Assembly (NCBI GenBank): GCA_016841625.1
Contig: JAENYU010000016.1
Location: 1-39,088, forward strand
Length of the DNA stretch: 39,088 bases
Origin: Methanobacteriota archaeon
GTDB lineage: Archaea > Halobacteriota > Methanosarcinia > Methanosarcinales > Methanosarcinaceae
Direction: 5' to 3'
The stretch's first letter is position 1. Every line of letters begins with the position of its first letter. Made by a program: the position numbers and the translations under genes. Below are positions 5,399-13,332 of the stretch, one piece after another. Under the pieces are notes generated by a model. That model had not been told where the DNA came from and did not search any database. It saw only the letters and a list, made by a program, of their open reading frames with translations.

Positions 5399-6277
5399 AT
5401 GAAACGAAAATGGGAACAGGATTGGGGTCTACAGGGCAGGATGCTTTTAACAATGTTTCTTCTGGCGGCAGTTTATCTTTTTTTCCTGGTGTTTCTCTCA
5501 TACAGCGGGGCACCGCCTACGTTCATGCTGCTTTTCATCGGGGGTTTCATGGCAATCCAGTACTTTTACTCGGACAGGATGGTACTCTGGACAACAGGGG
5601 CTCATATCGTTTCCGAAAGTGAGGCTCCTCGCCTGCACGAAACGATCACGAGGCTCTGTGCTATTGCCGATATCCCAAAGCCAAGAGTTGCCATTGTGGA
5701 TACTCCGGTCCCGAACGCCTTTGCCACCGGCAGGAGCCCCAGTAATGCCGTGGTTGCGGTCACCACCGGGATCCTGGACAAATTGACCCCTGCCGAACTC
5801 GAGGCTGTGCTTGCTCACGAACTGAGCCATGTCAAGAACCGGGACGTGATGGTTATGACAATTGCCAGTTTTATTTCTACCATAGCGTTCTATTTTGTCC
5901 GCTACAGCCTTTACTTCGGAAGTGGGGGGCAGAGACGGGGAGGCGGGAGTATTTTGCTGGTCTGGTTCGTTTCGGTTTTCGTCTGGTTTGTCAGTTTCCT
6001 GTTGATCCGTGCCCTTTCCCGCTACCGGGAGTTTTCTGCAGACCGGGGCTCGGCAGTTATCACGGGGCAGCCTTCGAACCTGGCTTCCGCCCTGATGAAG
6101 ATCAGCGGGGTGATGCAGAAAGTTCCCACGGAAGACCTCCGGAAGGTCGAGGGAATGAATGCCTTTTTCATTATCCCGGCCCTTTCCGGCTCTTCGTTCA
6201 TGAACCTCTTTTCCACCCATCCCCCTGTGGAAAAGCGGCTTGCAGCCCTTGAGAAGATTCAGAAGGATTTGGCCTGA
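5399..6277 (+). CDS. htpX: HtpX-type membrane zinc metalloprotease (M48)
   Basis: 292 residues. Two N-terminal membrane segments (about 14-36 and 40-56) precede a cytosolic M48 protease domain with the zinc site HELSH (about 140-144) and the third ligand in YREFSADRGSA (Glu about 211); another hydrophobic hairpin lies at about 152-205. HtpX proteases degrade damaged or misassembled membrane proteins. The ATG is preceded by a GGGGG run. Next downstream is pspAB, the gene that also accompanies htpX in actinobacteria and other archaea, so this copy probably serves the phage-shock/envelope-stress response. Confidence 0.93.
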   Translation: MKRKWEQDWGLQGRMLLTMFLLAAVYLFFLVFLSYSGAPPTFMLLFIGGFMAIQYFYSDRMVLWTTGAHIVSESEAPRLHETITRLCAIADIPKPRVAIVDTPVPNAFATGRSPSNAVVAVTTGILDKLTPAELEAVLAHELSHVKNRDVMVMTIASFISTIAFYFVRYSLYFGSGGQRRGGGSILLVWFVSVFVWFVSFLLIRALSRYREFSADRGSAVITGQPSNLASALMKISGVMQKVPTEDLRKVEGMNAFFIIPALSGSSFMNLFSTHPPVEKRLAALEKIQKDLA

Positions 6278-6300
6278 ATAAGCGAAAAGAATGGTGAAAT

Positions 6301-6405
6301 GAAGATGTGGGATATGTGAAATATGTGGGAGAGGGAGATGAAGAAGATGGGGAATATGGGGACGAGGAGGAATATGGGGAAAATGGAGAAGAAGATGGAG
6401 TTGAA
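6301..6405 (+). repeat. Purine-rich, G-run low-complexity tract
   Basis: About 105 nt between htpX and pspAB made almost only of G and A with scattered T. Motifs such as GAAGATGGGGAATATGGGG recur, giving three GGGG runs plus GAGGAGG. The tract could form a G-quadruplex in DNA or RNA. Its translation in any frame is repetitive and not convincing. Confidence 0.5.
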
Positions 6406-6410
6406 CTAAA

Positions 6411-7037
6411 ATGGGCCTCAGGAATTTCATGGATGCCGTTCTTGGAAGGAGCAGCCTTCCGAAATCACGGCCTGATAAGCTTTTTGCGATCTCCACGGCA
6501 AGCATAACCCTGGAAACCAATATGGGTCTGGAGCCGTCCGGAAAGGCGGGGATCTGCTTCAAGCCCATTGAAGCTTCCGCCTACACCAGCGCCCGGAAAG
6601 AGATTGAGGAGCTTCTGGAATACGGTGCAAAAGAAACCGGGACCGAATTCCGGCTTGAAAAAGACGAATACAATTTTCTCTGGGCAATTTTCAAAGACCC
6701 TGACTTCGAAGACCTGGTCGCAAACATCCACCTGGTAAGCCAGACCCTTGAGGAACACGGTTTCGGGAAGCAGCTTCTTTGTGCAATCTACCGTTTTGAG
6801 GCTGAAGCTGAGGGTGAAGGTAAGCTCGAAGGTCTGGAAGTCGGAGGGCATACCGGCAAAAAAGTGGTTTACTGGATCTACAATTTCAAGCAGGGTAGCT
6901 ATTATCCTTTTGTGCCGCTTGCGGGAAAGAAAAGGGATACCCCAATGGAATTCAGGCTAAGGACAGGGATGGAGCGGGAACTCCCCATTGAAAAAGATGT
7001 GGAAAAATGGTATCCTCTGTGGGGAATTCCCTTTTGA
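6411..7037 (+). CDS. pspAB: PspA-associated protein PspAB
   Basis: 208 residues matching the PspAB family: MGLRNFMDAVLGRS at the start, a central TASITLETNMGLEPSGKAG with CFKP, an LEEHGFGKQLLCAIYRF segment, YNFKQGSYYPFVPLAGKKRD, and the ending DVEKWYPLWGIPF. PspAB is a cytosolic partner of the PspA (phage-shock protein) system with no established biochemical activity, usually coded next to htpX. Here it follows htpX by 133 bp on the same strand, and the PspA/PspAA pair lies 0.8 kb away facing it. Family membership is from recognition of conserved blocks. Confidence 0.88.
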   Translation: MGLRNFMDAVLGRSSLPKSRPDKLFAISTASITLETNMGLEPSGKAGICFKPIEASAYTSARKEIEELLEYGAKETGTEFRLEKDEYNFLWAIFKDPDFEDLVANIHLVSQTLEEHGFGKQLLCAIYRFEAEAEGEGKLEGLEVGGHTGKKVVYWIYNFKQGSYYPFVPLAGKKRDTPMEFRLRTGMERELPIEKDVEKWYPLWGIPF

Positions 7038-7052
7038 CCTTTCAAATCCGAT

Positions 7053-7094
7053 CTATCTCTCCTGATCCATCTCTCCTGATCCATCTCTCCTGAT
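7053..7094. repeat. 14-bp tandem repeat, 3 copies
   Basis: CCATCTCTCCTGAT three times (first copy with one change), beginning 16 bp after the pspAB stop. Confidence 0.9.
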
Positions 7095-7219
7095 TATCCT
7101 GCAATTATTATACTTTTTTAATTTTTTAATTCACACCCCGATTTTCGGCCCCTCGGGATGAAATTTTAATAGTAATAATGCATATTTTATATTATAGTGC
7201 TAAGGGGAGTTGATATACA

Positions 7220-7657
7220 ATGGGGAATCTTTTCAAAAAAATCCTGATTGCAACTGATGGTTCGGAAAACGCCAGAAGAGCTGTATCTCATGGAATAGAT
7301 ATTGCGAAGGTAAGCGGTGCTGAAGTGTACGCTGTGTACGTCGTTTCCGATGAGCATGCAAAAGTTTCTGGGAAGGTCATGGGCTGGGCCGAACCTTTTG
7401 AGGAATATTTGACTGATCGAGGGCAACTTGCGACTGCATATGTTGAAAAAGCCGGAACAAGAGCTGAAGTCAAGGTGGAGCCGGTATTGCTGAAAGGCAG
7501 CCCGGCTGAAGAAATCCTTGACTATGCAGATAAAAATGGTATTGACCTGATAGTAATGGGCACACAGGGCTTGACAGGAATCAAAAGGTTCCTGATTGGC
7601 AGTGTGGCAGAGAACGTGATCAGACACTCAAAAGTCCCTGTAATTGTTGTGCGGTGA
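7220..7657 (+). CDS. Universal stress protein, UspA family
   Basis: 145 residues, a single Usp domain of normal length. It opens KKILIATDGSENARRAVSHGIDIA (Asp of the ATP-binding class) and ends with the nucleotide-binding loop VMGTQGLTGIKRFLIGSVAENV (the G-x2-G-x9-G-S/T pattern), then SKVPVIVVR. It probably binds ATP and acts in general stress survival. AGGGGAG at about 7203-7209 serves as Shine-Dalgarno. It lies between the two halves of the Psp system, so it may share stress control with them, but it has its own AT-rich promoter region. Confidence 0.95.
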   Translation: MGNLFKKILIATDGSENARRAVSHGIDIAKVSGAEVYAVYVVSDEHAKVSGKVMGWAEPFEEYLTDRGQLATAYVEKAGTRAEVKVEPVLLKGSPAEEILDYADKNGIDLIVMGTQGLTGIKRFLIGSVAENVIRHSKVPVIVVR

Positions 7658-7689
7658 ATGGGGGCTCCTGAAGCCTGATAATTTTCCAT

Positions 7690-7790
7690 TCTTCTTCTTT
7701 TCTATTTCTCTTCTATTTCTCTTCTATTTCTCTTCTTTTTAATTTTTCTTCTCCATTATTCTTCTTTTCTTTATTGCAATATTTTCCTGC
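7690..7790 (+). terminator. Pyrimidine-rich terminator region with an 11-bp repeat
   Basis: About 100 nt of almost pure T/C after uspA with several T5 runs, the usual archaeal termination signal. Inside it CTATTTCTCTT is repeated three times (7702-7734). Confidence 0.55.
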
Positions 7791-7872
7791 AAGGATCGCA
7801 GCTTTACTTTAGCAGTTGCTTCCGTGGCTTTTATTAAGACATCCAGAAAGCCGCCGCAGAAGCGGCAGTCGT

Positions 7873-8151
7873 TCAATCTTCGAAAATCCCGGTTCCCGTA
7901 AACACTTCTCTTGCTTCTTCAAGGCTGAGGTCTTCCGGGGGCACGATGATGTCCGATTCCAGAATTTCTTCGGCTGCTAGTTCGGTTCCTTTTGTCCTGA
8001 CCATGGCTACCAGCTTTGCAAGTTCGCTTCTGAACTCCCCGGCTTTCCCTTCGGCAACAAAGTCCACGATGCGGTTGTCCATCTCGTTAAGTTCGTCGTA
8101 GAGGGCTGCATGTACCCTGAACTGTCCTTCGCCCATAATCCTGATAATCAT
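7873..8151 (-). CDS. pspAA: PspA-associated domain protein PspAA
   Basis: 92 residues matching the stand-alone PspAA family: MIIRIMGEGQFRV at the start, a helical middle (LYDELNEMDNRIVDFVAEG), the ILESDIIVPPEDLSLEEARE motif and a short acidic tail. PspAA is known as a small partner coded beside PspA in archaea and actinobacteria. Its ATG overlaps the pspA stop codon (ATGA, 8148-8151), so the two are translationally coupled. It is the second gene of the pspA operon. Confidence 0.88.
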   Translation of the reverse strand: MIIRIMGEGQFRVHAALYDELNEMDNRIVDFVAEGKAGEFRSELAKLVAMVRTKGTELAAEEILESDIIVPPEDLSLEEAREVFTGTGIFED

Positions 8152-8894
8152 TTCTCTGCCCCCTTACCTGCTTCCTTGCTTTCGGGTTTTCCAGGTTCTT
8201 TGCCGGCTTCGGCTTTGAGCCTGGCGAGTTCGGACTCAATACTTGTCTGGGAGCTGATTTTTGCAAGTTCCCGCTCGATATCGTCCTGAGGGCCTGTAAG
8301 GTCTTCCAGGGCTCCGACTTCCATGAGCTCGTCGATAGCCTCGGCCCGGGCTTTCATTTCTTCGGTCTTGTTTTCGGCCCGCTCGATTGCAAGCCCCACG
8401 TCCGCCATCTCTTCGCTAATCCCGGTTACGGACTCGTTGATCCGGACCTGGGCTTCGGCTGCGGAGTACCCGGCTTTTATGGACTCTTTCCGGGTCCTGA
8501 AGATCTCGACCTTGGTGGAGAGGCGCTTTTCGGAGGCAATGAGCTTTTCTTGCTGCTTCTCAAGCTCGGTGATTTCCGTGTCAAGGCCCTCTACCTGCTG
8601 CATGAGGGCGGCTTTCCGTTCAAGGGCCATCCTTGCCAGGTCTTCCCTGTCAGCCGCTACAGCGTCTTTTGCCTGGGAGTCAAGTTTGTCCACGCTCTTC
8701 ATCAGTTTTGCCCGCTGGAGCTGGAGGCGCTTTTTTGAGGTGGTCACCTCGGCAACTCCCCTTTTTACGTCTTGAAGCATTTCTAGCTGTTTCTCATAGG
8801 AATAGTCCAGTGTTTCCCTGGGATCTTCCATTCTGTTGAGCAGTTTGTTCATCTTTGACTTGAAGACCGTTTCCATTCGGTTGATTAACCCCAT
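8148..8894 (-). CDS. pspA: PspA/IM30-family (phage-shock protein A / ESCRT-III-like) membrane-stress protein
   Basis: 248 residues, nearly all helical and heptad-rich, as in the PspA/IM30/Vipp1 (ESCRT-III-like) superfamily. It starts MGLINRMETVFKSKMNKLLNRMEDP, the amphipathic membrane-binding helix, followed by long coiled coils (residues about 25-180) and a helix near MEVGALEDL; the tail is rich in Lys, Glu and Gly. Such proteins assemble on the inner face of the membrane and stabilise it during stress. A GGGGGG Shine-Dalgarno precedes the ATG. It is followed by overlapping pspAA and is divergent from the MsvR-like regulator. Confidence 0.93.
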   Translation of the reverse strand: MGLINRMETVFKSKMNKLLNRMEDPRETLDYSYEKQLEMLQDVKRGVAEVTTSKKRLQLQRAKLMKSVDKLDSQAKDAVAADREDLARMALERKAALMQQVEGLDTEITELEKQQEKLIASEKRLSTKVEIFRTRKESIKAGYSAAEAQVRINESVTGISEEMADVGLAIERAENKTEEMKARAEAIDELMEVGALEDLTGPQDDIERELAKISSQTSIESELARLKAEAGKEPGKPESKEAGKGAEK

Positions 8895-9013
8895 GTTTTC
8901 CCCCCGATTTTTTCCTGCTACCTGTTAATTGGAGAGGCTGGTATTTTTATTTTTTTGCCGGGGGATTTATCCGATCCGGGGACGGAGATTTCTTCGTAAG
9001 GGAAAATGAGACT

Positions 9014-9039
9014 TTAATATTTATAACTTAATATTTATA
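9014..9039. repeat. Direct repeat TTAATATTTATA x2 in the pspA-msvR promoter region
   Basis: Two exact 12-bp copies at 9014-9025 and 9028-9039. They may be alternative TATA elements or part of a regulatory site; they lie 16 bp outside the TTCG/CGAA palindrome. Confidence 0.6.
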
Positions 9040-9054
9040 TATATTAGTCAATTA

Positions 9055-9070
9055 TTCGCAAGCATGCGAA
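9055..9070. promoter_or_regulatory. Palindromic operator TTCG-N8-CGAA, candidate MsvR box
   Basis: TTCGC, six bases, GCGAA: a perfect 5-bp inverted repeat. It sits directly before the TATA box of the downstream V4R regulator. MsvR proteins are reported to bind boxes of this TTCG...CGAA form in their own promoters. Binding here is inferred. Confidence 0.6.
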
Positions 9071-9072
9071 CA

Positions 9073-9082
9073 TTTTATATAT
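9073..9082 (+). promoter_or_regulatory. TATA box of the MsvR-like gene
   Basis: TTTTATATAT centred about 32 bp before the ATG at 9110, predicting a leader of only about 5 nt. That fits the absence of a Shine-Dalgarno site. Confidence 0.5.
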
Positions 9083-9109
9083 CCCAAAAACAACTTATAT
9101 AAAGATATC

Positions 9110-9856
9110 ATGGAAAGGCCTGAGAATAAAACTGAATTTTTTTACACGGAGTCCGGGCTTGTTACGGTGGACAGTCCGGTAAAACTGCAAATTCTCAATC
9201 TCCTCAGGGAAGATTCGAGGTCTTTTGATGAAATCGTAAAATACACGGCAAAGGCAAAGTCCACAATTTCCGTTCACCTCAACAATCTCAAGGCCAGCGA
9301 ACTCCTGGCAGAGATGGCCGACCCTGCCGACCACCGCCGGAAGATCTATTCCCTTAGCTCCCATTACATGGGCTGCTCCCAGAAACCTGTCCATGAACAC
9401 TATAACAGTTTGCTGGGAAAGGTTGCCGAAAACGGGAAAAATGATCGTTTTTCCTTTATGGAATCCGTCTACCATGCTTTACGCTTCGGGTTCGAAGCCT
9501 ACGGTATTGACAATGTCCCGATTGTAAAAAAGATCGGATGCGACATCGGTTTCCACCTTTCATCCGCTTTTGAGTCCGGAACCCCTGAAGAGCTTCTTGA
9601 AGAAGTCGGAAACTTCCTGGAATCCGGGGGAAACGGAAGGCTTTCCATGCTCAAAACCGAACCTCTTTCTCTCCTCATTGAAGACCCCTTCAAGGCCGAG
9701 TCGATGCCCGTTATCGGGAAGCCTTTCTGTGCCCTGAGTGAAGGCATTATAGAGGGGATTCTCTGCGGAAAGCTGGGCAGGGAATTCCGGGTTCAGGAAA
9801 AAGAATGCTACGGGACCGGACACGGCCACTGCATGTTCGAGATTCTGGTGGCCTGA
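9110..9856 (+). CDS. MsvR-family redox-sensing transcriptional regulator (ArsR-type HTH + V4R)
   Basis: 248 residues. Residues about 15-85 form a winged helix-turn-helix (SPVKLQILNLLREDSRSFDEI, then AKAKSTISVHLNNLKASELL), and residues about 105-248 a V4R domain ending GTGHGHCMFEILV. Cysteines lie at 89, 144, 207, 219, 233 and 241; the V4R cysteines are the expected redox switch in MsvR proteins. The architecture is that of MsvR, a methanogen regulator that controls itself and oxidative-stress genes. It is divergent from pspA, and the palindrome at 9055-9070 suggests autoregulation and possibly control of pspA. It could be an MsvR paralogue rather than the characterised orthologue. Confidence 0.8.
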   Translation: MERPENKTEFFYTESGLVTVDSPVKLQILNLLREDSRSFDEIVKYTAKAKSTISVHLNNLKASELLAEMADPADHRRKIYSLSSHYMGCSQKPVHEHYNSLLGKVAENGKNDRFSFMESVYHALRFGFEAYGIDNVPIVKKIGCDIGFHLSSAFESGTPEELLEEVGNFLESGGNGRLSMLKTEPLSLLIEDPFKAESMPVIGKPFCALSEGIIEGILCGKLGREFRVQEKECYGTGHGHCMFEILVA

Positions 9857-10113: not shown

Positions 10114-10809
10114 TCAATCGCTGCTTCCTATCACGACTCCAATTTCCGATTTCAGGTGAGGGCCTATTGCAGCCACGATACCCGGTCCATCCGTCTTTTC
10201 CCGGCATACGATTGCGTGTTCCAGGAGCCCCAGGCGTTCGACCTCGTAAATGTCCCTGCCATGCCCGGTCTTTTTGATTGCGCTTTTTATCTCCGAACGG
10301 GTGGCAGCATTTATGATAACCCTGTCCGTGCCTACCTTTTTCCACTCCCACCAGAGGTCAAGCTGCTTCTGGCTGAATCTACCCTTCGGACGGCCTCCTT
10401 TGCTTTCAATGATTTCGATTTCTGCCGGAAGGTTCCGGATCAGCCCGAACCTTGCAGCAAGCTGTTTTGCTTTCCCGCTGCCCAGAGCTTTGAGTTCCCC
10501 GGCTTCGACCCGCACAGGGATGCCGATGTTGACCACAAGGACATCTTCCTCGACAGCATGGATGAAACCCCTGTATACTTTTCCGGGTTCGGCTTTGTGG
10601 GCAGGGGTTCCGTATTTAGAAACCAGGAAGTTTTCGGAAACCTCTTCATCTTCCCCCTCCAGGCTTATCTCCGCCCACTGCTCGGGGGTAACTGAAATTT
10701 CAAAATCCACATCAAGTTCTTTCAACTCGTTTTCAACAAGGGCTTTAAGGGAATTAATTGCCCTTTCCCGGTTCCCGTATATGGGTTGCAATATGACTAC
10801 TTTTTTCAT
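10114..10809 (-). CDS. DUF2110 family archaeal protein
   Basis: 231 residues resembling the archaeal DUF2110 family: MKKVVILQPIYGNRERAINSL at the start, an acidic middle, then KVYRGFIHAVEEDVLVVNIGIPV (small beta domain) and GRFSQKQLDLWWEWKKVGTDRVIINAATRSEIKSA. The function is not known to me. The Lys/Arg-rich parts and beta barrel-like segment could suit nucleic-acid binding, but that is a guess. AGGAAG lies just before the ATG. It is a single-gene unit with a 16-17-bp repeat array beyond its 5' side. Confidence 0.65.
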   Translation of the reverse strand: MKKVVILQPIYGNRERAINSLKALVENELKELDVDFEISVTPEQWAEISLEGEDEEVSENFLVSKYGTPAHKAEPGKVYRGFIHAVEEDVLVVNIGIPVRVEAGELKALGSGKAKQLAARFGLIRNLPAEIEIIESKGGRPKGRFSQKQLDLWWEWKKVGTDRVIINAATRSEIKSAIKKTGHGRDIYEVERLGLLEHAIVCREKTDGPGIVAAIGPHLKSEIGVVIGSSD

Positions 10810-10877
10810 GTTCTTCCTGCCGTATCAACTTTGAATTTTAAGTTCCTCTGAGTCAAATGAAAATGGTTCCCGATATT

Positions 10878-11129
10878 AAGGAGAGTATGAATGCTAAAGC
10901 TGGATATAAACGTATAAGGCGGGTACCAAAAGTGTAAGGTATATCAATGTTAAAGCTGGGTGTCAGTTGTGAAGCTGAGTTTCAACTCCCAGGGCTGTTC
11001 TTAATTTATGATGTGGATATCAACGTTTAAGGTACTCAACGTTTAAGGTACTCAACGTTTAAGGTACTCAACGTTTAAGGTATCAATGTTTAAGGTACTC
11101 AATGTTAAAGGTATCAACGTTTAAGGTAA
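10878..11129. repeat. 16-bp tandem repeat array, homogeneous at one end and decayed at the other
   Basis: CAACGTTTAAGGTACT occurs exactly at 11021, 11037 and 11053, with 15-16-bp variants at 11069, 11084, 11100 and 11115. Before 11021, diverged copies can be followed back to about 10878 (for example CAATGTTAAAGCTGGGT). The last copy supplies the final codons and TGA stop of the minus-strand gene at 11114. Confidence 0.85.
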
Positions 11130-11770
11130 GATTCAAGGAGGCTGGAACTTTCTTCCAGGGATTCCGTGACCATTTCATCAATGGGGCTTTCAGCCGTTTC
11201 AATCATGTTCCTGAGTTTTTTGATGTCCCGGCTGTAGGGGCCCAGCTTTCGGGAAATCATATCCCTGCTGTCTCCCTGTTCCAGAGCTTCCCGATGGATG
11301 TTCTCAATCTTTTCCCGGAGATTCCTGATTTTTCCAAAGATTTCCTTATTTACCGGGTTCAGCTCTTTTATTTTTTCGTTTTCGTTTTCTCCTTTTTCTT
11401 CTTCCGCTTTTCCAGCCTCAGATCCAGCTCTTGCTCCTTTAACACTTCCCCTGGCTGCCTCTTCTCCGGAAGCTTCAGCTTCTTCTCCCCTGGGGGCTGA
11501 CTCCCGGATGATATTCCGGAACTCATTGAGGGCGGTTTCGACTTCTCCTCCGTATTCCGTAAGTTCGACAAATTTGATCCGCCCCTCGAATGTGAATCTG
11601 ATAAGTCCGCACTGTTCCATTTTGGTGAGGATCCTCGTGGTATGGGCAAAAGTGGAATCTATCTCTTTTGAAATCACGGAGGCGTAGGTTTTTTCCATCG
11701 AGCCTATAAAAAGCAGTGCAAGAGTGGGTTTTTCCTGCAAAAACAATTTTTCTGCATCATCGTCGGACAT
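11114..11770 (-). CDS. Winged-helix (MarR-like) transcriptional regulator with charged helical tail
   Basis: 218 residues. The first 85 form a winged helix with KTYASVISKEIDSTFAHTTRILTKMEQCGLIRF (recognition helix) and FEGRIKFVELTEYG (wing). A Glu/Ala/Gly-rich linker (about 90-130) follows, then a helical, probably coiled-coil region (KIRNLREKIENIHREALEQG) to the end. It is probably a DNA-binding regulator; ligand and targets are unknown. The last residues YLKR and the stop codon are encoded by a copy of the downstream 16-bp repeat, so its C-terminus may differ between strains. Confidence 0.75.
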   Translation of the reverse strand: MSDDDAEKLFLQEKPTLALLFIGSMEKTYASVISKEIDSTFAHTTRILTKMEQCGLIRFTFEGRIKFVELTEYGGEVETALNEFRNIIRESAPRGEEAEASGEEAARGSVKGARAGSEAGKAEEEKGENENEKIKELNPVNKEIFGKIRNLREKIENIHREALEQGDSRDMISRKLGPYSRDIKKLRNMIETAESPIDEMVTESLEESSSLLESYLKR

Positions 11771-12057
11771 AATATCACATTGGAGTGCTTTATGGAGGGT
11801 TGCCTGTGGATTTTACAGATCCAGATATATTACATCATTCAATAAATTTTGTATAATTTTTAACAGTTTCTATCTTAAAACTTCTTCTTGATTTTATCGT
11901 TCTCTTTTTGTCTCTGAGCTTCAGCTTTCTTGAGATTTTGGAACTTTTCTGATCCTTTGGGGATCTGAGATTTTTGAGCTCTCCTGAGATTTTTGAGATT
12001 TTTGAACTTGTTTGAGGGTTTTAGGCTTTTGGGTTGCTTTGAGTTTTTAGAGGCTTT
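11771..12057. other. Intergenic region with GAGATTTTTGA-type repeats
   Basis: T-rich on the plus strand. From about 11930 to 12050 it contains loosely repeated TGAGATTTTTGA units. No gene is visible. Confidence 0.4.
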
Positions 12058-13218
12058 TCACAGGGAACGGATTATTTCCTTAATTTCCTTTATCGGTGCG
12101 TCAGTCTTGAATGAAGTTCCGGTGAAATGGGTGCGTGAGGCTTCAAACCCGTTTGCTCTCAGGGCTTCGACAAAGCCTTCTATGCCTGTAGCCGAAACTC
12201 CCATTTCTTTGCAGATTACGTGCTGGTCGTAGAACATAGGGATGTCGAGTTCATCCCTGCAAAAGCTGATTATTTTCATTGCTTTTTCCTTTGTCCTGAG
12301 AGGGCGCTTTTCCATTTCGGCAAGCACCTCATTGCAAAATGCAGCTTCCCTCAGGGGACCGAGCCAGAGCGGACCTGCAATTTTCGTGCCAGCCCCGCAG
12401 ACAGGACATTCCCGGTCTATGTGTACGGCCAGCCCCTCCACAGGCTCCCTGAAACCACATTTCAGGCAGTGGACGAGGAAGCCCATGGATTTAAGGGTCC
12501 TGTCCGCCTGTTTTGCTCCCTGGCGTACTTCGAGGTAGCTGCGGACATAGTGCCGGGTCACATGGGAGAGCAGGGGAAGCATTGCTTTTTCATGTTTCGC
12601 AAGTTCCCTGGCGCAGGCCCCGAGCAGGACCCGCAACCCCATCTCACTGTGGAATTCCGTGTTAAGGGGCACGGACGCATACTTCCTGATCCCCGAATTC
12701 AGATGGGCTCCGCAAAGGGGGGCGGTATCTGTTGCCGTAACCGAAAGCAGGTTATAGACCGATGAGGAAGCTGCGTCCAGGAAGGGGGCGGGCGTCCCGA
12801 AGGGGTCGATGTCCACGATGTGGAATCTCTGCTCGTGGAGCAGTACGTTTGCATTCTTCCGGCATCCTTCCGCTTTTTCCTCCAGCCCGTTGAGTTTGAT
12901 GTTCTGTTGAATTAGCTCGAATGCCTCCTGGCTCCAGTCGTTCAGGGTGGCGTGGATCCCTACTTCTCCCGCAACCCGGAGCCCCCGGATTCCCGATGCG
13001 GAAAAGGCATCAACGTAACGGACCTCTTCCCTTTGCATATCCCTCTTCCCGAGCAGTCTTTCCACGAAAGCTGCAGTTGCTGCAACATTGATGTCGCGGT
13101 TGAGTTCCATCTCCGGGTTATAAAATACCGGTGCCGCAGAGGGAGGGAAGGCCGCATCCTGAGGCGGGACCGGGACTAAAACCTCTGTCGTGCCTTCCAT
13201 TATGGTTTTAAGGGTCAT
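12058..13218 (-). CDS. trm1: tRNA (guanine26-N2)-dimethyltransferase Trm1
   Basis: About 386 residues of the Trm1 family, which dimethylates G26 of tRNA using SAM. Seen: [20 protein letters not shown] near the N-terminus, a SAM-binding domain with [16 protein letters not shown], the catalytic-site motif [16 protein letters not shown], and a zinc-binding pair CLKCGF...CPVCG in the C-terminal domain. The start is uncertain: ATG 13218 is used here; TTG 13224 or ATG 13200 are possible, and none has a clear Shine-Dalgarno. Two more tRNA-modification genes (trmY, pus10) lie 4-6 kb away. Confidence 0.93.
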
Positions 13219-13332
13219 CTGCAATGCTATTCTTTGATATCGTATTTTACAGTAATGGTCATTTTATCCATAGCTGCCCGAACAAACCGGAATTACGGCA
13301 TACGGATTGATTTTTACGGCTCTTTTTGGACA

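Follow-up and report, generated by a model that had tools for sequence, protein, structure and literature searches.

The locus spanning positions 5399 to 9856 of the window (the whole 39,088-nt stretch of Methanosarcinaceae DNA analyzed here) is probably the junction of two independently inherited gene blocks, in which msvR would regulate itself while the psp genes would be transcribed from separate promoters. This reading draws on gene identities, synteny, the position and conservation of an MsvR box and the conservation of the regulator's cysteines, all of which are observed, and, for DNA binding and autorepression, on analogy with Methanosarcina acetivorans.

All six open reading frames were intact where the original prediction had placed them, and each was confirmed by a Pfam or NCBIfam profile match (Table 1), which bears out their assignment to HtpX, PspAB, UspA, PspAA, PspA and MsvR. 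The htpX product carries the HELSH zinc motif and pspAB adjoins htpX, with PF22742 and NF002669 both over their cut-offs, so that the two form a PspAB/M48 membrane peptidase pair. Likewise, pspAA is paired with pspA, its start overlapping the pspA end by 4 bp, and PF04012 spans residues 3-232 of the 248 of PspA, that is a full-length PspA_IM30 domain; the protein is single-copy in the window's genome (1 match). The product of msvR combines an ArsR-type HTH with a C-terminal V4R domain and scores above the cut-off of the MsvR equivalog. Regarding the layout, htpX-pspAB-uspA run rightward and pspAA-pspA leftward, and msvR is divergent from pspA, as had been predicted, across 215 bp. The proposal of two facing units around uspA was right about the facing orientation but not about the centre, uspA being the third rightward gene and not the middle of a symmetric unit.

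Table 1. Features of the psp-msvR locus (positions in the window).
Feature	Position	Strand	Description
htpX	5399..6277	+	M48 membrane zinc metalloprotease; PF01435 2.6e-40; NCBIfam HtpX NF002669 471.8 bits (cut-off 341)
pspAB	6411..7037	+	PspA-associated protein B; PF22742 263 bits, 2.6e-78
uspA	7220..7657	+	uspA-type universal stress protein; PF00582 139 bits, 1.7e-40
pspAA	7873..8151	-	PspA-associated protein A; PF22743 112 bits, 1.5e-32
pspA	8148..8894	-	PspA/IM30, ESCRT-III superfamily; PF04012 85.3 bits (cut-off 33.9), 6e-24
pspA-proximal conserved block	8895..8970	-	TATA-like A/T-rich AAAAATAAAAATA about 57 nt before pspA start
A/T element	9025..9045	.	ATTTATAACTTnATATTTATATAT, left of MsvR box; conserved in 4/4 genomes of the window's genus
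MsvR box	9055..9070	.	TTCGCAAGCATGCGAA; perfect inverted repeat TTCGCA-N4-TGCGAA; fits published TTCGN7-9CGAA (PMC3729527)
msvR TATA box	9072..9082	+	attttatatat, directly after MsvR box
msvR	9110..9856	+	ArsR-type HTH and V4R redox regulator; NF053755 MsvR equivalog 275.1 bits (cut-off 220); PF01022, PF02830
DUF2110 protein	10114..10809	-	COG4044 counterpart; PF24872/PF09883/PF24873; conserved right-hand neighbour of msvR

By comparing synteny across 112 Methanosarcinaceae genomes, we found that the two halves of the locus have separate histories. First, the psp quartet htpX-pspAB> <pspAA-pspA was intact in 24 of 24 loci of genera g6, g10 and g11, with htpX and pspAB adjacent in every one, and msvR was absent beside it in all 24, over regions of up to 19 kb. 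The same quartet, with no msvR alongside, was present in three Methanomicrobiales loci (Methanolinea and another Methanomicrobiales genome). Since the 24 sister loci have the quartet without msvR, the lack of a PspF-type regulator, which had been highlighted as a feature of the locus, is in itself unremarkable. Second, the block msvR-DUF2110-unknown-trm1 was conserved family-wide, the order msvR-DUF2110-unknown being kept with or without Psp genes. Third, the window's genus (4/4), Methanosarcina (24 loci) and one further genus have the two blocks head to head, giving 29 linked genomes. The expected conservation of the neighbourhood among relatives thus applies to the pspA-msvR pair and not to the full six-gene island, which was complete only in the window's genus. 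As for uspA, it adjoins pspAA in that genus and in most Methanosarcina loci; other genera have the quartet without it.

The distribution of the proteins agrees with this separation. PspA and PspAB occurred together in 68 genomes and alone in 1 and 3, respectively, while 40 genomes had neither (Fisher p about 1e-25 without phylogenetic correction), and the Psp genes were gained or lost together independently of the near-universal MsvR. MsvR exceeded its cut-off in 94 of the 112 genomes against 69 for PspA, so that regulator and PspA do not co-occur as they would in a PspF-like arrangement. The psp quartet would be an old arrangement and the msvR linkage a joining of separate blocks. A stricter form of this explanation would take the adjacency as a pure accident, devoid of functional meaning. 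We consider this quite conceivable, if somewhat against the balance of the data: the blocks lie apart in other genera and the linkage was lost in two Methanosarcina genomes, but nearly all Methanosarcina, the window's genus and one further genus have kept it, for longer than neutral gene order might last by an unquantified expectation. Of the 26 testable Methanosarcina genomes, 24 retain the head-to-head pair; this could also reflect shared regulation, which would count against the two-block explanation.

To which gene the MsvR box belongs can be judged from its spacing. At 9055-9070, a box of the TTCGN7-9CGAA type stands before the TATA box of msvR itself, an order common to the msvR promoters examined. 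Across the 29 linked genomes, the distance from the box to the msvR start was 38-40 nt (sd 0.26), whereas that to pspA varied from 160 to 596 nt (sd 94). A TTCG-N8-CGAA box followed by a TATA box was present at 26 of 26 further msvR promoters without linked pspA, and none of the upstream regions of unlinked pspA genes (0/29, 400 nt each) contained an MsvR box. In two genomes where pspA has been relocated (G076 and G104), the box stays with msvR, and pspA retains GTAAGCTAATTATATTA, an element also located ahead of other pspA genes in Methanosarcina. Because the box is fixed relative to msvR, present without pspA and missing from unlinked pspA, it is the predicted operator of msvR itself. Its meaning comes from position and conservation and not from the rarity of the pattern, which in its bare form occurs in the window no less often than chance predicts (2 found versus 2.75 expected). 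Unlike in a PspF-like arrangement, the operator had no conserved position relative to the pspA promoter.

These results bear on the original prediction of one island under redox control, with htpX, pspAB, uspA, pspAA and pspA as a single MsvR regulon. The genes do cluster physically in one genus (4/4, save for the htpX of one member, which is cut by the contig). However, the box is locked to msvR, none was found before htpX or uspA when the window was scanned, and the Methanosarcina htpX-pspAB pair sits elsewhere in the genome. Furthermore, pspAB and uspA are separated by 1.4-1.6 kb in the other three members of the window's genus; in one of these (L062), the gap reads as a leftward frame that looks lipoprotein-like. 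We therefore regard a single regulon as highly improbable. We rejected a shared regulon deduced from the box alone, since the box keeps its place at msvR and the frequency of the bare pattern is that of chance. Nor do the data support a redox-controlled Psp response as a general rule.

Redox control of the psp genes is nevertheless possible in the window's genus. There, the pspA-pspAA operon would share the single operator of msvR, reduced MsvR repressing both sides and its oxidation releasing the membrane-repair genes and the regulator together, which would give an anaerobic archaeon a Psp response triggered by redox change. We find this unlikely, although several observations run against the two-block explanation and in its favor. 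The box lies between the divergent genes in a compact intergenic region whose length is 215 bp in 4/4 genomes of the genus, the conserved A/T element (9025-9045) is only a few bases away on the pspA side, and in M. thermautotrophicus a shared region is published as the site from which MsvR controls the operon divergent from it (PMC3729527). Were this element the TATA box of pspA, MsvR could repress pspA as well. However, a similar A/T-rich stretch accompanies the box in Methanosarcina, even where hundreds of bases separate it from pspA or pspA has left. The element may be a flank of the operator that is flexible, or else an alternative promoter. A different TATA-like block (8895..8970), which hardly varies within the genus (4/4 genomes), is the candidate pspA promoter, and in sister genera pspA comes without the box. 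A putative second MsvR half-site, CTTCGTAAG, near pspA (8990s) was not shared by the other three members of the genus. We also discarded a pspA promoter element at -153, CTAATATATATAA, which had seemed to resemble the Methanosarcina element; it is not conserved in the window's genus and is simply the A/T stretch next to the MsvR box read on the opposite strand. Regulation of the psp genes via looping or another site is possible. To our knowledge, PspA regulation in archaea is essentially unstudied.

Under the two-block explanation that we favor, the left block would be a membrane-maintenance module in which PspA, a scaffold of the ESCRT-III type that binds membranes, is paired with PspAA, and the membrane protease HtpX with PspAB. 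In this view uspA is a lineage-specific extra, and the right block would be msvR with its family-wide followers. Reduced MsvR would bind the 9055-9070 box and block its own promoter, and oxidation of the V4R cysteines would release it. Transcription of pspA-pspAA and of htpX-pspAB most likely begins at promoters of their own, MsvR not being a dedicated regulator of the psp genes. These separate promoters, as well as the protein functions in the window's organism, are what we infer from the comparisons above.

We know of no MsvR targets in Methanosarcina beyond its own promoter. Genome-wide, the strict MsvR pattern gave 4 sites versus 6 for a control pattern, so that a regulon defined in this way was rejected for lack of enrichment. 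With a TATA box required as well, 2 sites remained in the genome, those of msvR and of a small RNA away from the psp genes. This second MsvR-type candidate operator (TTCGTATAAATGCGAAAGGTATTTATA, at C1:12130 of the window's genome, G000) was conserved in 26/26 cases and precedes an unannotated RNA of about 95 nt. Rfam returned no match for the window or seven small-RNA loci, and when five genomes were searched for targets with the complement of the RNA loop (a 20-mer, allowing at most 3 mismatches), the RNA itself was the sole hit. The conserved small RNA is a candidate MsvR output and a new lead stronger than the psp linkage.

The window's MsvR closely resembles that of M. acetivorans (MA1458), with the same family, DUF2110/COG4044 neighbour and box-TATA-start layout (39 nt) (PMC3729527). 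All three tested V4R cysteines (C206, C232 and C240) are conserved, aligning with cysteines 207, 233 and 241, which were invariant in the 11 homologues compared; in L062 a stop codon falls directly before the second one. M. acetivorans MsvR shows redox-dependent binding and autorepression, and in EMSA it bound its own promoter only when reduced (PMC3729527). In contrast to the window, where msvR is next to pspA, the published map places a "hypothetical protein", MA1459, at this position (PMC3729527). In the genome matching M. acetivorans (G074/L066), a frame ends exactly 128 bp before msvR, which is the published gap. This frame is encoded by repeats (SFLPVY) not seen in other intergenic regions, and the real neighbour is also pspA, 651 bp away. 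MA1459 is probably a spurious ORF, on account of which msvR was taken in the published map to regulate nothing but itself there, the true Methanosarcina neighbour being pspA.

The window also recalls the Methanothermobacter locus, in which msvR is divergent from the stress operon fpaA; there, the boxes of the shared region overlap elements of both promoters, whereas the window's box is anchored only on msvR (PMC3729527). On the Psp side, the four Psp-related proteins are those of Ravi et al. 2024 (PMC11237479), who named the PspA-PspAA dyad (example AAM04874.1) and described a system of membrane metallopeptidase and PspAB; neither MsvR nor UspA is mentioned in their main text as a neighbour of pspA. 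We found no MsvR-Psp link in the literature searched. The convergent arrangement and the msvR linkage are described here for Methanosarcinaceae, the parts being already known (PMC11237479, PMC3729527). Finally, the locus is laid out like gammaproteobacterial pspF and pspABC, where pspA and the gene of a transcription regulator are likewise divergent. The regulators differ: PspF, which PspA controls, is an AAA+ activator that binds sigma-54 enhancers, whereas the window's MsvR is a redox repressor of the ArsR-type/V4R kind and is not known to contact PspA. If the operator were shared in the window's genus, a PspF-like divergent layout would have been reached from an unrelated regulator.

The six genes that the original prediction joined into one redox-controlled envelope-stress island are all intact at the positions it gave and score above curated family thresholds (Pfam/NCBIfam), which bears out the identities claimed for them. 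Alignment with the M. acetivorans MsvR indicates that the V4R cysteines tested there are conserved in the window protein (3/3), and none of the neighbours tested proved to be a PspF-type activator.

Features of the psp-msvR region and of a second operator site (window positions unless a contig is named)
Feature	Position	Family or remark	Score
HtpX		NF002669	472 bits
PspAB		PF22742	263 bits
UspA-type protein		PF00582	
PspAA		PF22743	
PspA		PF04012; sole copy in genome	
Conserved stretch adjoining the box	9025-9045	pspA side of the box	
Box	9055-9070	perfect inverted repeat TTCGCA-N4-TGCGAA	
MsvR		NF053755	275 bits (cut-off 220)
DUF2110 protein, unnamed 218-aa protein, Trm1-like protein	10114-13224	after msvR; 218-aa protein without Pfam match; third gene presumed Trm1-like from reading its sequence	
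Second operator and non-coding stretch	C1:12130-12281	same genome, outside the window (loci L179, L233); perfect MsvR-type operator and TATA box, then the conserved non-coding stretch	

We searched 112 Methanosarcinaceae genomes for MsvR, PspA and PspAB and mapped the window proteins onto the 60 loci retrieved. In three sister genera (g6, g10 and g11), htpX-pspAB faces pspAA-pspA in 24/24 loci, with neither uspA nor msvR within that stretch in any of them. Because the identical quartet is also found in three Methanomicrobiales loci, it probably predates the family. In 24 loci of Methanosarcina (g13), pspAA-pspA and msvR are arranged head to head, uspA usually adjoins pspAA, and htpX-pspAB sits elsewhere in the genome, away from this junction; pspA is away from msvR in genomes G076 and G104, and linkage was not judged in G098, where the contig ends. 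The junction is also present in the single genome of genus g4. The original prediction made recurrence of the neighbourhood in related genomes one of its checks; the survey recovered a junction conserved in a limited clade, with all parts together only in the window's genus (the contig of genome G008 stops before htpX). The order msvR-DUF2110-unknown gene is preserved family-wide, also in genera without Psp, and the Trm1-like gene shares in this conserved order. In the MsvR tree, g1, g4 and g13 fall together to one side of a branch with full support, a split consistent with the joining of the psp and msvR blocks in a single event. PspA and PspAB occur together in 68 genomes, one alone in 4 and neither in 40 (the Fisher value for this table takes no account of kinship and is descriptive); MsvR is near-universal among the Methanosarcinaceae genomes surveyed, and these phyletic profiles set PspA/PspAB apart from MsvR.

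Some loci carry peculiarities of their own. Two Methanosarcina genomes contain an additional pspAA-pspA pair that is unlinked and lacks an MsvR box (L095 in G077 and L096 in G094). In L062, from the single-contig genome G006 of the window's genus, a leftward lipoprotein-like frame fills the pspAB-uspA gap; this gap is similar in size in L063 and L064, from the two remaining members of the genus, and the window has none. The msvR of L062 has an in-frame TAA at codon 232, just 5' of the conserved second V4R cysteine; the regulator may be truncated here, or the stop may be a sequencing error. Outside the archaea, an Actinomycetes bacterium MAG contig (L177, JAHEIS010000070.1) encodes a PspA 63% identical to archaeal PspA with pspAA, pspAB and htpX nearby, through either horizontal transfer or contig misassignment.

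The box between pspA and msvR fits the published MsvR motif TTCGN7-9CGAA (PMC3729527). As a bare pattern, the motif is no commoner in the window than chance would give; its meaning comes from cross-genome comparison. Across 29 linked genomes, the distance from the box to the msvR start stays within 38-40 nt (sd 0.26), and that to the pspA start ranges over 160-596 nt (sd 94); in one of them (L083), CGAG replaces CGAA. Beyond these, 26/26 msvR promoters taken from genera with pspA unlinked or absent carry an exact TTCG-N8-CGAA box with TATA after it, and a g11 msvR promoter (L098) has a box with one mismatch. No box was found in the 400 nt upstream of unlinked pspA genes (0/29). In G076 and G104, the box remains with msvR, and pspA retains an element found 5' of other Methanosarcina pspA genes. 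Taken together, the fixed msvR distance, the msvR promoters without pspA, the boxless unlinked pspA genes and these two genomes identify the box, by sequence comparison, as msvR's own, ancestral operator. MaMsvR binds its own promoter only when reduced, and its C206A variant binds without reduction (PMC3729527).

Judged from this layout, control of pspA by MsvR looks unlikely in Methanosarcina. In the window's genus alone, redox control of Psp by MsvR may be viewed as a testable possibility: the pspA-msvR intergenic region is 215 bp in 4/4 genomes, and their alignment reveals conservation on the pspA side in two stretches, the first adjoining the box and the second directly 5' of pspA. The former resembles an A/T-rich stretch that flanks the box in Methanosarcina, also at loci lacking pspA, and, given that A/T-rich flanks are published as required for MsvR binding, this argues that it would be part of the operator. 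The observation itself holds, and the interpretation put on it is supported in part: the parts of the proposed island are known and its junction is real, and redox control narrows to a possibility for one genus, not a finding.

Requiring both box and TATA box left two sites in the window's genome, msvR and C1:12130. The latter was found again in 7/8 further genomes searched, between what we take, from reading translations, to be hflX and a PHP-domain gene. A conserved non-coding stretch, about 95 nt long and with ends that pair (GCGAACGGGC/GCCCGTTCGC), follows this operator after ~25 nt. A model of the stretch gave one strong match per genome in 32 genomes (4/4 in the window's genus, the other 28 in Methanosarcina) and five weak matches in g10. 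Of 30 loci examined, the pattern located the core in 26 and missed it in four; all 26 have a TTCG-N8-CGAA box upstream at a constant distance, among them the eighth genome, G006, which the stricter pattern had missed. Covariation is slight (one pair, plus GAG/CTC in L230), and Rfam gave no match. These features suggest a small RNA, so far unannotated, that is controlled from an MsvR-type operator; we infer both its transcription and the binding of MsvR from sequence.

PspA-PspAA and metallopeptidase-PspAB were already known (Ravi 2024, PMC11237479), in a paper whose main text mentions neither MsvR nor UspA, and a survey called the Psp networks of archaea largely unknown (PMC9239133). For M. 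acetivorans, the published gap between msvR and the neighbouring hypothetical gene MA1459 is 128 bp (Isom et al.). In G074 (5,751,492 bases; locus L066), which we identified ourselves as matching that genome, a frame of tandem repeats in the pspA-msvR interval stops exactly 128 bp short of msvR; it was not found in the other intergenic regions compared. MA1459 corresponds to this repeat-encoded frame and is probably not a gene. Because the actual msvR neighbour in G074 is pspA, the published reasoning rests on a probably spurious gene; despite MA1459, our comparison points to the same conclusion as Isom et al.
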